Of a stretch of DNA of 32,581 bases, positions 26,230 through 32,356 are shown piece after piece. Under the pieces are notes generated by a model, which was not told where the DNA came from, made no database searches, and saw nothing but the letters and a program-made list of their open reading frames with translations. Position 1 is the stretch's first letter; each line of letters opens with the position of its first letter. The DNA lies in the NCBI GenBank assembly GCA_027053355.1, contig JALUDX010000141.1, positions 1-32,581 on the forward strand. The letters run 5' to 3'. Source of the stretch: Anaerolineales bacterium (GTDB taxonomy: Bacteria; Chloroflexota; Anaerolineae; Anaerolineales; DRMV01). The position numbers and the translations under genes were made by a program.

Positions 26230-27024
26230 ATGCCCTCAGCCGACACCCCCGCTTCGCTCCCCTTTGCCGGGAAAATCGCGCTGATCACCGGCTCGGGGCG
26301 CGGTATCGGCCGCGCCATCGCCTTGCATTTTGCCCGCCTCGGCGCCGACGTGGTGGTCAACTTCTTCCGCAACCGCGCCCCCGCGGAAGAAACCGCAGCC
26401 CAAATCCGCGGCCTGGGGCGCCGCGCCTTGGTGGTCAAGGCTAACATCGGCGACCTACAGGCGCTGGATGCCCTCTTTCAGGCCACTGAAGAGCACTTCA
26501 GCGGGCTGGATATTTTCGTCCACAACGCGGCTTCGGGCTACAACCGGCCGGCCATGGCGCAAAAGCCCAAAGGGTGGGATTGGACGATGAACATCAACGC
26601 GCGCGCGTTTCTCTTTGGCGCGCAGCGGGCTGCGCGGCTGATGCGCGGCCGGGGCGGCGGCCACATGGTGGCGATTTCCAGCCCCGGCTCGGTGCGGGTG
26701 CTGCCCGAATACGTGGTGGTGGGCGCGAGCAAAGCCGCGTTGGAGGCCGTGACCCGTTACTTGGCGGTGGAACTGGCCGAGCAGAACATCGTGGTCAACG
26801 CGGTTTCGCCAGGGGTGGTGCCTACCGACGCGCTGCAGCATTTTTCCACCTTCCGCGACCCCGATTTGCTGCCCCGCCTGGCCGCGGCCAACCCTGCCGG
26901 TCGGCTGGTGACCCCTGAAGACGTGGCGCAGGTGGTAGCCTTCCTCTGCAGCCCCGCGGCGGCCATGATCCGCGGCCAGGTCATCCTGGTAGATGGCGGC
27001 GCGTCGCTGCTGCTGCACGGCTGA
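26230..27024 (+). CDS. fabL: Enoyl-[acyl-carrier-protein] reductase, FabL type
   Basis: 264 residues. This is a short-chain dehydrogenase/reductase with the glycine motif TGSGRGIGRAIA (about 20-31) and the NAASG motif at about 99-103. The catalytic residues are Tyr161 and Lys168, spaced Y-x6-K, the spacing of enoyl reductases rather than the Y-x3-K of ordinary SDRs. NAASGYNRPAMA, GWDWTMNINARAFLFGAQ, SKAALEAVTRYLAVEL and MIRGQVILVDGGASLL closely resemble Bacillus subtilis FabL. It would catalyse the last, NADPH-dependent step of fatty acid elongation. AAGGAG lies about 13 bases upstream of the ATG, slightly far. The gene stands alone, followed by the riboflavin transport operon. Confidence 0.88.
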   Translation: MPSADTPASLPFAGKIALITGSGRGIGRAIALHFARLGADVVVNFFRNRAPAEETAAQIRGLGRRALVVKANIGDLQALDALFQATEEHFSGLDIFVHNAASGYNRPAMAQKPKGWDWTMNINARAFLFGAQRAARLMRGRGGGHMVAISSPGSVRVLPEYVVVGASKAALEAVTRYLAVELAEQNIVVNAVSPGVVPTDALQHFSTFRDPDLLPRLAAANPAGRLVTPEDVAQVVAFLCSPAAAMIRGQVILVDGGASLLLHG

Positions 27025-27035
27025 ACCGCCCCCCA

Positions 27036-27044
27036 TGGTATAAT
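27036..27044 (+). promoter_or_regulatory. Candidate promoter of the riboswitch operon
   Basis: TGGTATAAT is a perfect extended -10 element just after the fabL stop codon. No clear -35 was seen. Use of this promoter would give a leader of about 250 bases before the aptamer, with the repeat at 27058-27286 included. A promoter nearer to the aptamer was not recognised. Confidence 0.45.
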
Positions 27045-27057
27045 CGCGTCGACGGGC

Positions 27058-27286
27058 ATCTGCTCAGCCCCTGCGAAGAAAAGGAGATAACGCAGAGGCG
27101 CAAAGCAGGGGCAAGGCGCGCCTCGCCCAGAGGCGCAGAGGAAGGACGCCAAGAGAGGCGCCCAGGCAACCAACCTCGCCCTAATTTCCCAATCCCTATC
27201 ACCTTCTGTGTTCTCGGCACCCTCTCTGTGTCTTCTGTGTTTTTCGTCTGCGAAACCTGCGATTTCCCTTGCTGAGGCGAGCAGAT
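27058..27286. repeat. Family-2-like element upstream of the FMN riboswitch
   Basis: The ends ATCTGCTCAGCCC (left) and GAGGCGAGCAGAT (right) give an 8-bp perfect inverted repeat. The interior has CGCAGAGGCGC, GGACGCCAAGAG and CTCTGTGTCTTCTGTGTTTT, the family-2 vocabulary. No 8-bp duplication remains. It lies between the presumed promoter and the aptamer. Confidence 0.45.
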
Positions 27287-27303
27287 AGCCCAACACAACG
27301 TCA

Positions 27304-27435
27304 CCACCTTCGGGGCAGGGTGAGCGGCGCGCGGCCGCAATTCCCGACCGGCGGTCAAAGCCCGCGAGCGCACTGCAAAGCGCAGACTCGGTGAAATTCC
27401 GAGGCCGACGGTACAGTCCGGATGGGAGAAGGTGG
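27304..27435 (+). ncRNA. FMN riboswitch (RFN element)
   Basis: The conserved aptamer segments follow in order: TTCGGGGCAGGGTG, ATTCCCGACCGGCGGT, AAAGCCCGCGAG, GCAGACTCGGTGAAATTCCG, GGCCGACGGTACAGTCCGGA and GGGAGAAGG. P1 is a perfect CCACCTT (27304-27310) with AAGGTGG (27429-27435). The variable P3-like arm (AGCGGCGCGCGGCCGC) is slightly extended. It lies upstream of a complete ABC transporter on the same strand and controls it through the terminator at 27495-27528. Confidence 0.97.
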
Positions 27436-27494
27436 CCATTCACGCGCTGGGCCTCCGGCAGGCGCGGCGTGTGGTGCTTGCCTCTTGCCCACAG

Positions 27495-27528
27495 CAGCCC
27501 CGAAACAGCCTTCGGGGCTGTGTTTTTT
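27495..27528 (+). terminator. Riboswitch-controlled intrinsic terminator
   Basis: CAGCCCCGAA (27495-27504) pairs with TTCGGGGCTG (27511-27520), followed by TGTTTTTT. The 5' arm's GCCCCGAA is also perfectly complementary to TTCGGGGC at 27309-27316 at the start of the aptamer, giving an antiterminator when FMN is absent. When FMN is bound, P1 is held and the terminator can form. Confidence 0.88.
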
Positions 27529-27609
27529 GTGCCCCGCTGCCGCCTCCCGCATCCCGCCCCCCGCCTCACGCATCCCGCTTCACGTCTTCACGCCTCCCTT
27601 TCTTGTCCA

Positions 27610-28458
27610 ATGAACCTCACCCACGCCCATCGTCGCCTGATGTATGCCATGCGGAGCAACCGCCACCGCGCGGCGCAGCACGTGCTTTCCACCGCGGCCG
27701 CGGTGGTGCTCTGGTGGGCAGTGGCGCGGCTGTTCCACCTGCCCGCGTTCCTCCTCCCCACGCCGGGGGAGGTAGCGCGGCGCGGCTGGCAGGCGCTGCA
27801 AGAGGGCATCCTCTGGCGCCACACCTGGGTGACCCTGCAAGAAGTGCTCGCCGGGTTGGCCTTAGGCACCCTGACCGCCACCGTGCTGGGCTACGGCCTG
27901 GCTAAATCGCGTGTGTTGGAACGGCTGCTTGCGCCTTACTTAGTAGCCAGCCAATCGGTGCCGGTAGTGGCCATTGCACCCTTGCTCATCATCTGGTTTG
28001 GCACCGGCCTGCTGGCCAAAACCCTGATCTGCGCGCTGATCGTGTTCTTCCCCGTCTTGGTCAACACGGTGGTGGGCGTGCGCAGCGTGCCCGAAGAACT
28101 GCACGACCTGTTCCGCTCCCTCCACGCCAGCCGCTGGCAAACCGTTCGCTACTTGGAAATCCCTGCCGCGCTGCCCGTATTTTTGGGCGGCCTGCGCATC
28201 GGCGCGACCCTCTCGGTCATCGGCGCGGTGGTCGGTGAATTCGTGGCCGCGGATAGCGGGCTGGGCTTCCTCATCAACCTGGCCCGGGGCCGTTACGACA
28301 CCGCGTTGGTCTTCGTGGCCGTGTTCGTGCTGGTCGGCCTGGCGCTGACCCTTTACGGCAGCGTGGTGGCTTTAGAGCGCCGCTTCTTGGCCTGGCAGGC
28401 GCCCTCAGCCCGCTCAGGTGCGGCGCAGTCATCCCCTGGTGGAGAGTTGACCCCATGA
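27610..28458 (+). CDS. ribX: ABC transporter permease, probable riboflavin importer (RibX-like)
   Basis: 282 residues from ATG 27610. There is no good ribosome site; later ATGs at 27640 and 27649 are possible starts. The protein has about six membrane segments, for example AAAVVLWWAVARLFHLPAF and VPVVAIAPLLIIWFGTGLLA. It has the binding-protein-dependent permease cytoplasmic loop around RSVPEELHDLFRSLHASRWQ followed by IPAALPVFLGGLRIG, as in the ThiX/SsuC group. The FMN riboswitch just upstream and the THI5-like binding protein just downstream point to riboflavin or a close precursor as substrate, like the RibXY systems described in Chloroflexota. The stop overlaps the next start by four bases (ATGA). 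Confidence 0.88.
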   Translation: MNLTHAHRRLMYAMRSNRHRAAQHVLSTAAAVVLWWAVARLFHLPAFLLPTPGEVARRGWQALQEGILWRHTWVTLQEVLAGLALGTLTATVLGYGLAKSRVLERLLAPYLVASQSVPVVAIAPLLIIWFGTGLLAKTLICALIVFFPVLVNTVVGVRSVPEELHDLFRSLHASRWQTVRYLEIPAALPVFLGGLRIGATLSVIGAVVGEFVAADSGLGFLINLARGRYDTALVFVAVFVLVGLALTLYGSVVALERRFLAWQAPSARSGAAQSSPGGELTP

Positions 28459-29441
28459 AACGCTATCTCTTGCTCCTCCCTCTGCTCTTTGCTCTGGCCG
28501 CTTGTGGCCGCACCCCCGCGGGAACGTCCACCCCCCGCCCCTTGCGCAAGATCAACCTGCCCATGGGCTACATCCCCAACATCCAATACGCGCCCTTTTA
28601 CGTGGCCAAAGAGCACGGCTATTACGAACAAGCCGGGTTCGACGTCTCGTTCGATTACAGTTTCGAGACCGACGGGGTCGCGCTGGTGGGCGCCAACAAG
28701 CGGGCTTTTGCCATTGTCTCCGGCGAACAGGTGCTCATGGCCCGGGAACAAGGGGTGCCCGTGGTCTATGTCATGGCCTGGTGGCAAAAATTCCCCATCG
28801 TGGTCATTGCAGACAAGAAACTCGGTCTGAAATCGCCCGCTGACCTCAAAGGCCAGCGCATCGGCTTGCCAGGGCTGTTTGGCGCCAATTACATCGGGCT
28901 GATTGCCCTGCTGCACGAATTCCACCTGCAGGAAAGCGACGTCACCTTAGACGCCATCGGCTTCAACCAGGTCGAGGCTTTCACCAGCGGCAAGGAGCCC
29001 ATCGTGGTGGGCTATGTGACCAACGAGCCGATCCAACTGCGTAACCAGGGCTATCAGATCACCACCTTCCCCGTGGCCGATTACGTCACCCTCGCCTCCA
29101 ACGGCTTGATCACCAACGAAACGCTGATTCGCGAAGACCCCGAAATGGTACACCGCTTCGTGCGGGCGACGCTGCGGGGGCTGAGCGATACCATCACTTA
29201 CCCCCACGAGGCTTACGAAATTTCCAAGAAGTACGTGGAAGGGCTGGCAGACGAAGACCCAAAGGTGCAGATGGAAATTCTGCGCACGGCCATTGAGTAC
29301 TGGCGCGGCGACCCCAACCCTCTTGGCTATACGAAACCAGCGGCGTGGCAAAAGACGCAAGAGGTGCTCCAAAGCATGGGGCTGCTCCACGGCGCGCAAG
29401 ACCTCAACGCGGCCTACACCAACGACTTCATCAAGCCGTAA
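28455..29441 (+). CDS. ribY: ABC transporter substrate-binding lipoprotein, THI5/NMT1-like (RibY-like)
   Basis: 328 residues. The signal MKRYLLLLPLLFALAAC has a lipobox LAAC, so the mature protein would be lipid-anchored at Cys17. The NMT1/THI5-type fold is visible in INLPMGYIPNIQYAPFYVAK, EHGYYEQAGFDVSFDYSFET, SPADLKGQRIGLPGLFGANY and the C-terminal helix-rich part. Its family members bind riboflavin or thiamin precursors. It is translated from an ATGA overlap with the permease. The riboswitch makes riboflavin the best guess for its ligand. A thiamin precursor is less likely since no TPP element was seen. Confidence 0.88.
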   Translation: MKRYLLLLPLLFALAACGRTPAGTSTPRPLRKINLPMGYIPNIQYAPFYVAKEHGYYEQAGFDVSFDYSFETDGVALVGANKRAFAIVSGEQVLMAREQGVPVVYVMAWWQKFPIVVIADKKLGLKSPADLKGQRIGLPGLFGANYIGLIALLHEFHLQESDVTLDAIGFNQVEAFTSGKEPIVVGYVTNEPIQLRNQGYQITTFPVADYVTLASNGLITNETLIREDPEMVHRFVRATLRGLSDTITYPHEAYEISKKYVEGLADEDPKVQMEILRTAIEYWRGDPNPLGYTKPAAWQKTQEVLQSMGLLHGAQDLNAAYTNDFIKP

Positions 29442-29499
29442 GGGTAGCGCCAAAGGGCGAAGAAGCAGAAGTGAGCATTATGCTTTGCGTAGGCGTATG

Positions 29500-30255
29500 A
29501 TGAACGCGGACACAACCCCTTTCCTGGAAGTGCAACACCTGGGCGTGGTCTTCCCGGCCGACGGCGCAGACCTGGAAGTGTTGCACGACGTCGCTTTCCG
29601 CGTTCGGCGGCGCGAGTTTTTGGCCGTGTTGGGCCCTTCGGGGTGTGGCAAGAGCACCCTGTTGCGGGTGCTGGCGGGGCTTTTGCCGCCCAGCCGCGGG
29701 CAGGTCACCTTCCCCGGCCACCGAGCCCGGCCGCGGGTAGGGCTGGTCTTCCAAAAGGCCAACCTGCTGCCCTGGCGCGACGTGTTGGGGAACGTCAGCC
29801 TGCCTTTGACCCTGCAAGGGGCGCCCCGGCGCACGGCCGAGCGCCGCGCCCAGCGGCTGATTGCCCGCATGGGGCTGCAGGGCTTCGAAGGGGCGCTGCC
29901 TCGCGACCTTTCGGGCGGCATGGCGCAGCGGGTCGCGCTGGCCCGCGCCTTCATCCATCAGCCTGACTTGCTCTTGTTGGACGAGCCGTTCACCGCCTTG
30001 GACGCCCTCACCCGCGAACGGCTGTGGGAAGAACTGCTGCGCATCTGGCGCGCGGAGCGCACCACCGTGGTCATGGTCACCCATTCCATCACCGAGGCGC
30101 TGCTTTTGGCCGACCGGGTGCTGGTGCTCAGCGCGCGGCCGGCCACCGTGCGCCTGGATATGGCCGTGACGCTGCCGCGCCCGCGCGCCGAGGGGCTGCG
30201 CTACACCCCGGCCTTCGGCCAAATGGCCCGCCGGCTGCGGGAGGCCATCGCCTGA
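29500..30255 (+). CDS. ABC transporter ATP-binding protein (riboflavin importer)
   Basis: 251 residues from ATG 29500; the adjacent ATG at 29497 is equally possible. Neither has more than a weak AGGCG ribosome site. The ATPase has Walker A GPSGCGKST, the Q-loop FQKANLLPW, signature LSGGMAQR, Walker B LLLLDEPF and the H-loop histidine in VMVTHSITEA. It resembles the SsuB/TauB/ThiZ group that pairs with this permease type. It is 58 bp after the binding-protein gene, so it completes a three-gene importer under one riboswitch. Confidence 0.92.
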   Translation: MNADTTPFLEVQHLGVVFPADGADLEVLHDVAFRVRRREFLAVLGPSGCGKSTLLRVLAGLLPPSRGQVTFPGHRARPRVGLVFQKANLLPWRDVLGNVSLPLTLQGAPRRTAERRAQRLIARMGLQGFEGALPRDLSGGMAQRVALARAFIHQPDLLLLDEPFTALDALTRERLWEELLRIWRAERTTVVMVTHSITEALLLADRVLVLSARPATVRLDMAVTLPRPRAEGLRYTPAFGQMARRLREAIA

Positions 30256-30815: not shown

Positions 30816-31757
30816 ATGCCTCTCTTTCGCCGCGTGTTGCGCTTTGTGCCGCTTGTGCTGTTGCTGATGGTGGGCTTGCGCCCGGTGCGGGCTGCCCAAC
30901 CGCCTCATTTCGCCGTGCTGCAAATTTCGCTCTGGCCCGAATACGACCAGCCGAGCGTGCTGGTGATGTACACTCTGACCTTGCCTGCCGACGCCAAACT
31001 GCCTTTGCCCCTGGAAATTCGTATTCCCGCGCGGGCCGGGCAGCCCCACGCGGTGGCCTTCGAAGGCCCCGGCGGCAACTTAGTCAACGCGGATTTCCGT
31101 TACAGCGCCGACGCCAAGTGGGGCACCATCAGCCTGAGCGCCATGCGCCCCACGGTGCACATTGAGTTTTACGACCCCGCGCTCACCAAAGACGGCGCGC
31201 AGCGCACCTACACCTACCAATGGCCGGGCGGCGTGCAGGTAGACAACTTGCTGCTGGTGGTGCAGCAGCCCGCCGGCGCCACCCAGATGACCATCTCGCC
31301 CGAATTGGGCACGGGCGAGCAGGCCGACGACGGCCTGGTCTACTACCGCGGGGAACTGGGCGCGCTGACCGCAGACCAAACCTTCACCGTGACCATCCGC
31401 TACCAGAAAAAGGACGACACCCTGAGCGTAGACAGCCTTTCCCCCTCCACCGCGCCGCCCGCTTCGAACCAGCCCCCGGCCGGCGAAACCGGCTGGAACA
31501 AAGCCCTGCCGTGGATTGCCACCGCGTTGGGCGTGGTGCTGATTGTGGTGGGGTTGGTGTGGTACTGGTCGAGCACCCGCACCGTGGCCGCGCCCGCCCG
31601 CCGACGCAGCCACAAAACCCGGCGACAACCCATTCCCCCCGAAGCCTTAGCCGCCGATATAGAAGCCGACGACCAGGTGCGCTATTGCCCCCAATGCGGC
31701 GCACGCGCCCACCCCGGCGACCGCTTTTGCCGCATGTGTGGCACGCCGCTGCGCTAA
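30816..31757 (+). CDS. Secreted/membrane protein with C-terminal zinc ribbon, upstream of ccmE
   Basis: 313 residues from ATG 30816, with GAGGGA upstream. The longer in-frame reading starts in a repeat and is rejected. Signal peptide at about 1-27 (VLRFVPLVLLLMVGLRPVRA), then a beta-rich outer domain of about 190 residues without a recognised family. A Ser/Pro/Ala linker leads to a membrane segment (about 231-250) and a basic stop-transfer region (RRRSHKTRRQ). The C-terminal cytoplasmic zinc ribbon is CPQCGARAHPGDRFCRMCGTP. It lies 110 bp before ccmE on the same strand. A role in haem delivery or cytochrome maturation is suggested only by this position. Confidence 0.88.
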   Translation: MPLFRRVLRFVPLVLLLMVGLRPVRAAQPPHFAVLQISLWPEYDQPSVLVMYTLTLPADAKLPLPLEIRIPARAGQPHAVAFEGPGGNLVNADFRYSADAKWGTISLSAMRPTVHIEFYDPALTKDGAQRTYTYQWPGGVQVDNLLLVVQQPAGATQMTISPELGTGEQADDGLVYYRGELGALTADQTFTVTIRYQKKDDTLSVDSLSPSTAPPASNQPPAGETGWNKALPWIATALGVVLIVVGLVWYWSSTRTVAAPARRRSHKTRRQPIPPEALAADIEADDQVRYCPQCGARAHPGDRFCRMCGTPLR

Positions 31758-31867
31758 GCCCTTCCTCTCAAATTCATGCCTTTTTAATTCCCGTATGCCA
31801 AAATGGAAGTGGCGGGGCGTGCCCGCCTGTTTGTTGCATCTCCCCGACCCCAAAGGAGAAAAAGCCG

Positions 31868-32356
31868 ATGAGTGGCCGGACGCGTTTTCTGATTGGCGGT
31901 GCGCTGATTGTGGTCGCCGTGGTGTACCTCATTTTCAGCGCAACCCAGAGCAACGCCCAATACTTCCTGACCGTCGACGAGTTGCTGGCGCGGCAAAACG
32001 AACTGGTCGGCAAAAACGTGCGCATTTCGGGCGCGGTGCTTGGCAACAGCATCCACTACGACCCGCAAAAATTGGATTTGCGCTTCACCATTGCCCACGT
32101 GCCCAGCGACAACAAGTTGATCGAGGCCCAGGGCGGGTTGGCTAAAGTGCTGCATGAAGCCGTAATCGACCCGCAGCGCGCGCACTTGGACGTGGTTTAT
32201 CACGGGCCCCGCCCCGACATGCTCAAAAACGAAGCCCAGGCCATCATCACCGGCCATCTGGGGCAGGATGGCGTCTTCTATGCGGACGAATTGCTGCTCA
32301 AATGCCCTTCGCACTACGAAGACGCGGTGCCCGACCAGGTCGAAGACAAACCCTAA
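31868..32356 (+). CDS. ccmE: Cytochrome c maturation haem chaperone CcmE, CxxxY type
   Basis: 162 residues from ATG 31868, with AAAGGAG about 9 bases upstream. An N-terminal membrane anchor (about 7-26) is followed by an OB-fold domain (YFLTVDELLARQNELVGKNV at the start, and GHLGQDGVFYADELLLK at the end). Classical CcmE binds haem covalently through a histidine in HxxxY. Here the motif is Cys146-Pro-Ser-His149-Tyr150, the CxxxY variant known from some archaea and Desulfovibrio. It carries haem to the cytochrome c ligation machinery on the outer face of the membrane. Other ccm genes would be expected beyond the right edge. Confidence 0.92.
   Translation: MSGRTRFLIGGALIVVAVVYLIFSATQSNAQYFLTVDELLARQNELVGKNVRISGAVLGNSIHYDPQKLDLRFTIAHVPSDNKLIEAQGGLAKVLHEAVIDPQRAHLDVVYHGPRPDMLKNEAQAIITGHLGQDGVFYADELLLKCPSHYEDAVPDQVEDKP

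Follow-up and report, generated by a model that had tools for sequence, protein, structure and literature searches.

An FMN riboswitch in the stretch of DNA analysed here (the window; 32,581 nt from an Anaerolineales bacterium) very probably represses a RibXY-type riboflavin transporter through transcription termination. The aptamer, the terminator, their complementarity, its conservation in relatives and the computed ligand-free folding are established here, and we infer the ligand response, the direction of control and the promoter. At low FMN, the 5' strand of the aptamer, UUCGGGGC, with GGGUGAG behind it, would pair with GCCCCGAA, and with CUUGCCC, during passage of the polymerase, and this antiterminator would block the terminator, such that the transporter genes are transcribed. 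At high FMN, the ligand would lock P1 and the joining segment, leaving GCCCCGAA free to pair with the next-made copy of UUCGGGGC, and transcription would stop at the U6 tract. This switch logic is that of the established FMN-riboswitch antiterminator and is not special to the site; the window is a clear textbook case from a little-studied lineage.

FMN Aptamer and Downstream Genes

The aptamer (RFN element) occupies 27302–27437 of the forward strand and matches Rfam RF00050 over the full model (1–138) with 108.7 bits, compared with a gathering score of 66.2; it is the only RF00050 match in the genome. The closest named relatives are Anaerolineales MAGs (Chloroflexota), and the G+C content of the window is 63%. 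According to the Rfam match, the P1 helix is formed by CCACCUUC (27304–27311) and GAAGGUGG (27428–27435), the latter strand being the anti-antiterminator.

Three transporter genes follow on the same strand, namely a ribX-like ABC permease (27610–28458; PF00528, 1.4e-32), a ribY-like NMT1/THI5-type binding protein (28455–29441; PF09084, 1.4e-47) and an ABC ATPase as third component (29497–30255; PF00005, start codon taken from the translation), so that the aptamer lies 5' of a gene layout of RibXY plus ATPase. RibXY of Chloroflexus has been reported to be under the control of FMN riboswitches, with uptake shown by complementation (PLoS One, PMC4418817). Among NCBIfam models, none gave a riboflavin-specific name to the genes at 27610–30255, and it is from the riboswitch and the RibXY literature that we infer riboflavin to be the probable substrate. 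A scan of 26900–27650 for promoters of the sigma-70 type, the only type covered, gave no match.

Terminator and Predicted Antiterminator

An intrinsic terminator lies 3' of the aptamer, as expected of a transcription-attenuating (OFF) switch: a hairpin of 11 bp with a loop of 6 nt at 27494–27521 (−20.3 kcal/mol; terminator scan and folding), followed by a U6 tract at 27523–27528. Its 5' arm, GCCCCGAA (27497–27504), is the perfect complement of the antiterminator strand UUCGGGGC (27309–27316), which is composed of UUC, at the inner end of P1, and GGGGC, the conserved joining segment. The word TTCGGGGC thus occurs at 27309–27316 and again, as the 3' arm of the terminator, at 27511–27518, and the window contains no other GCCCCGAA...TTCGGGGC hairpin. 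The original prediction of an FMN riboswitch at 27304–27528, with a terminator arm complementary to bases that overlap P1 and the first conserved aptamer positions and a second arm repeating those bases, is borne out in each of these points, coordinates included. The direct copy is, moreover, longer than eight bases, as 13 of 15 are alike between 27307–27321 and 27509–27523.

In ViennaRNA calculations, the probability of pairing between the aptamer strand and the terminator 5' arm is 0.97 before the terminator 3' arm has been transcribed and 0.14 afterwards. For a transcript ending at 27512, the antiterminator is the minimum free energy structure (−103.7 kcal/mol, compared with −88.8 kcal/mol when P1 and P2 are forced, a cost of about 15), and for one ending at 27530 the lowest energy is that of the terminator fold (−116.5 kcal/mol, compared with −113.6 kcal/mol for the antiterminator). 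These folding results support the original interpretation. Because ViennaRNA omits the ligand, tertiary contacts and kinetics or timing, the aptamer is undervalued in these figures. The same behavior is computed across leaders of related genomes, where pairing of the first linked arm with the aptamer reaches a probability of 0.5 in 83 of 85 leaders while the 3' arm is still to be made and in 11 of 85 once it has been made, in a set selected beforehand for complementarity.

It had also been proposed that aptamer folding and antitermination compete for the same eight bases in a compact manner. The competition itself stands, at the level of computation and comparison, as the pairing of aptamer strand and terminator arm excludes the aptamer and the arm is kept across families, but the arrangement is less clean than was thought. 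In minimum free energy folds of the window leader (transcripts ending at 27504–27512), GGGUGAG at 27318–27324, which comprises the P2 5' strand and continues beyond it, forms a second antiterminator helix with CUUGCCC at 27484–27490, and the predicted antiterminator accordingly has 15 bp in two helices instead of 8 bp. In addition, a fallback hairpin, ACAGCCU-UCG-GGGCUGU (27505–27521; 7 bp and a 3-nt loop, then GU6), can fold while the aptamer strand holds the 5' arm.

This fallback hairpin leads to the most serious alternative, namely that it terminates transcription with or without FMN and that regulation is only partial, which we regard as possible, though clearly the less probable reading. 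At −9.5 to −9.9 kcal/mol it is the 7th strongest of 143 hairpins examined (median −3.0 kcal/mol), and since it remains when the antiterminator forms, the ON state of the window may be leaky. However, with 7 bp and a loop of 3 nt this hairpin may lack the strength or the speed to stop the polymerase, and the full terminator has roughly double its stability.

Conservation in Relatives

RF00050 was found in 122 of the 151 genomes searched (that of the window and 150 relatives), from which 124 leaders were taken. The aptamer core was at the expected place in 114 of these, and the other 10 were left out of the hairpin count; in 8 of the 10, TTCGGGGCAGGG sits 51–113 nt farther upstream. In 8 leaders of family f9 (L190, L192, L193, L194, L195, L198, L199 and L200), the Rfam match begins 51–113 nt downstream of the TTCGGGGCAGGG core, pointing to a large insertion that probably lies in P2, behind the initial bases of the aptamer. 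Complement sites were counted in 111 of the 124 leaders, those with no core, with less than 150 nt or with N being excluded. As the leaders are related, none of the counts are independent, and numbers of families are given where they were made.

Downstream of the aptamer, 105 of 111 leaders contain a stretch of 7 nt or more that is complementary to its 5' strand, compared with a mean of 23.1 and a highest value of 32 in shuffled leaders. For at least 8 nt against the 18-nt 5' segment of the aptamer, the count is 83 of 111, compared with a mean of 6.0 in dinucleotide shuffles. Other 18-nt segments of the aptamer find a complement of at least 7 nt in 13 to 33 leaders. A single leader would have an 8-nt complement by chance in about 5% of cases, which makes the match in the window weak evidence alone; the case rests on the relatives, which as a set constitute strong evidence.

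The complement is also found in the right structure. We called a hairpin linked when RNAfold and a U tail identified it and its 5' arm had a complement of at least 6 nt to the aptamer 5' strand. Such a hairpin occurs in 89 of 114 leaders, whereas the mirror control, in which the 3' arm carries the match, gives 16 of 114; by this rule, no linked hairpin was found in the remaining 25.

These hairpins also bear on whether the element acts mainly on translation, with downstream structure hiding the ribosome binding site and no real terminator at 27494–27521. Dual platforms have been described by Barrick and Breaker (PMC2258182), and the second hairpin that many relatives carry often ends near the start codon (median of 28.5 nt to the first in-frame ATG, n = 32, with rough start codons that leave two distances negative and two over 800). 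In the window, however, U6 directly follows the 11-bp stem, with the ATG at 27610 lying 81 nt beyond the end of the tract, and the linked hairpins of the relatives have U tails, although these were required by the search rule. Regulation mainly at translation thus appears quite unlikely, and termination is the preferred reading.

Covariation and Bases Outside the Terminator Stem

The suggested check for covariation in the 8-bp pair is nearly uninformative, since the aptamer half of the pair shows next to no variation. Among 194 leaders, TTCGGGGC is present in 172, 9 have no recognizable core in the scanned stretch, and 13 carry variants. Full compensation is seen in only one of the 13 (G113, TTCAGGGC with GCCCTGAA); the near-identical G127 and G145 compensate in the second arm only, and in the other 10 there is none.

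A different comparison is possible because the terminator stems of many relatives use only CCCGAA/UUCGGG, leaving the bases just outside the stem free. The first of these matches the aptamer, being C in 25 of 25 hairpins from 8 families, and the next is G in 45 of 53 hairpins from 10 families; farther out, T is found in 35 of 65, and the following positions (14 of 68 and 21 of 70) are at background. This is the pattern predicted from TGCCCCGAA, the complement of UUCGGGGCA. Since the terminator stem does not use these outer bases, their match to the aptamer points to selection for pairing with it. The G faces T/U in 43 of 53 hairpins and could partly reflect G-U pairing within the terminator, which leaves the C as the cleanest evidence. 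Where ligand binding fixes the sensor strand, selection for switching would become visible as sensor-matching arm bases that the terminator does not use, and the comparison therefore supplies a test of expression platforms for cases in which covariation fails.

Least probable of all, and very improbable in our estimation, is that the 8-bp match is incidental, the lineage favoring GCCCCG...CGGGGC terminators to which the aptamer consensus is complementary by accident: the chance rate for a lone match and the terminators of similar base make-up elsewhere (GCCCC/CCCCG in the 5' arm of 11 of 506 background perfect-stem hairpins, 6 in the mirror arm, from 80 related loci plus the window, or 81 loci and 1.09 million bases on both strands with FMN regions masked) are outweighed by 79 of 139 such U-tailed hairpins in the 124 leaders with none in the mirror arm, by the fit of the unused C, and by a complement of at least 8 nt in 83–84 leaders for the 5' segment compared with 2–16 for other aptamer segments.

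Beyond the immediate relatives, a class-wide sample comprised 86 leaders, mostly from other orders and some from the same order (26 new and 60 picked among the matches listed); the core pattern missed 16 of the 86, and 68 were used for complement-site counts. A site of at least 7 nt occurs in 39 of 68, compared with 13.1 in shuffles, and the anti-aptamer arm is therefore weaker in this sample. The outside-stem comparison gives C in 2 of 3 there, from 7 hairpins in total, too few to be informative. By eye, leaders of another group, among them L207, L209, L211, L216 and L236, show either TTGCCCCAC...GTGGGGTTTT terminators or, close to the start codon, C-rich words (CCCTGCC), which complement the neighboring stretch GGGGCAGGG of the same aptamer strand. 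From one lineage to another, the anti-aptamer arm seems to change register.

Putative Tandem Terminators in Anaerolineales

It is an evenly balanced question whether, in Anaerolineales, one FMN aptamer gates two, or rarely three, consecutive terminators, its 5' strand serving them one after another, with the window representing the one-terminator form. More than one site of 7 nt or longer is present in 53 of 111 leaders from 12 of 15 families, compared with a mean of 2.6 and a highest value of 5 in shuffles, in a tally that includes the window and other leaders where a site is not a hairpin arm. We therefore also considered 45 leaders with two U-tailed hairpins, picked regardless of the sequence of the second arm. 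The second 5' arm matches the aptamer over at least 6 nt in 32 of the 45 (10 families), and the second 3' arm does so in none. Before the 3' arm of the second hairpin is made, the computed probability that its 5' arm pairs with the aptamer strand reaches 0.5 in 33 of 35 leaders, and afterwards in 7 of 35. One leader, L147 (G071), has three U-tailed hairpins with aptamer-matching arms. L147, L135 (G121), L140 (G099) and other Anaerolineales leaders show two to three successive terminator-like hairpins complementing the same aptamer strand.

Two arms cannot be held simultaneously by one strand, but a hairpin that closes once the polymerase has moved on is harmless, and the strand could therefore be reused. 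During passage of the polymerase it would occupy the first terminator's arm; closure of that hairpin, by then without effect, would set the strand free to occupy the second arm. A relay, in which the freed 3' arm of the first terminator serves as antiterminator of the second, was considered and rejected as a general rule: in the 45 leaders, the second arm matches the aptamer better than it matches the first terminator's 3' arm in 36, equally in 5 and worse in 4, which suggests reuse of one aptamer strand. The same comparison on 53 cases (45 better, 5 equal and 3 worse) is biased because the sites were chosen by aptamer match, and it includes the window, where neither the second nor the third site is a hairpin; it is not relied on.

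The window itself has one U-tailed hairpin and, in place of a second, an orphan 7-nt word complementary to the aptamer, TGCCCCG, at 27530–27536 of the forward strand, which has neither a hairpin nor a partner arm. It lies 25 nt past the first arm, and the second sites in leaders of the same genus lie farther. The orphan may be a chance occurrence or perhaps the remnant of a second terminator. In the class-wide sample, at least two sites are found in 6 of 68 leaders, compared with 1.2 in shuffles, so that doubling is mainly a feature of Anaerolineales.

In a limited search of the literature on tandem, multiple or consecutive riboswitch terminators, no account of several terminators with anti-aptamer arms behind a single aptamer was found. 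If real, the tandem form would be a double-check termination platform with a single sensor, and how one aptamer gates two stops, and whether repression is thereby sharpened, would become testable questions.

Comparison With Known Systems

In Bacillus subtilis, the FMN riboswitch of the rib operon at ribD works with transcription attenuation. Unlike the FMN riboswitches of rib operons, that of the window precedes a ribXY-type transporter and has a predicted second antiterminator helix and a fallback hairpin. For the ribD riboswitch of Bifidobacterium, aptamer bases TTCAGGGC are named AntiT and the P1 strands anti-antiterminators, with citation of Winkler 2002 (PMC7522473). As far as that account goes, the two elements share the aptamer family, P1 as anti-antiterminator, an OFF switch acting through a terminator, and an antiterminator strand drawn from the same 5' segment of the aptamer, TTCAGGGC there and TTCGGGGC in the window.

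The Chloroflexota RibXY leaders, as described in PMC4418817, likewise have an FMN riboswitch 5' of a permease and an NMT1-like binding protein; what is added here is the dissection of the expression platform in the window, a platform often doubled in its relatives. Tandem terminators within one attenuator leader are shared by these relatives and the rimP-leader of some Gammaproteobacteria (PMC2965389). The two terminators of the latter contain inverse CCCg/cGGG motifs, and no aptamer is mentioned in the portion of that report used here, whereas in the Anaerolineales relatives each of the two arms carries the complement of the same aptamer strand.

Other Features of the Window

A C-terminal CcmE domain lies in a longer open frame at 31220–32356 (378 aa, start uncertain), on which the NCBIfam CcmE models score under their cut-offs. 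The SDR protein encoded at 26230–27024 passes the NCBIfam cut-off for a FabL-type enoyl-ACP reductase (349 compared with 328 bits). Finally, the region between the terminator and the ribX-like gene (27540–27598) contains a pair of 21-nt direct repeats (86% alike) as well as three copies of a related 11-nt word; relatives carry their second terminator at the corresponding place.
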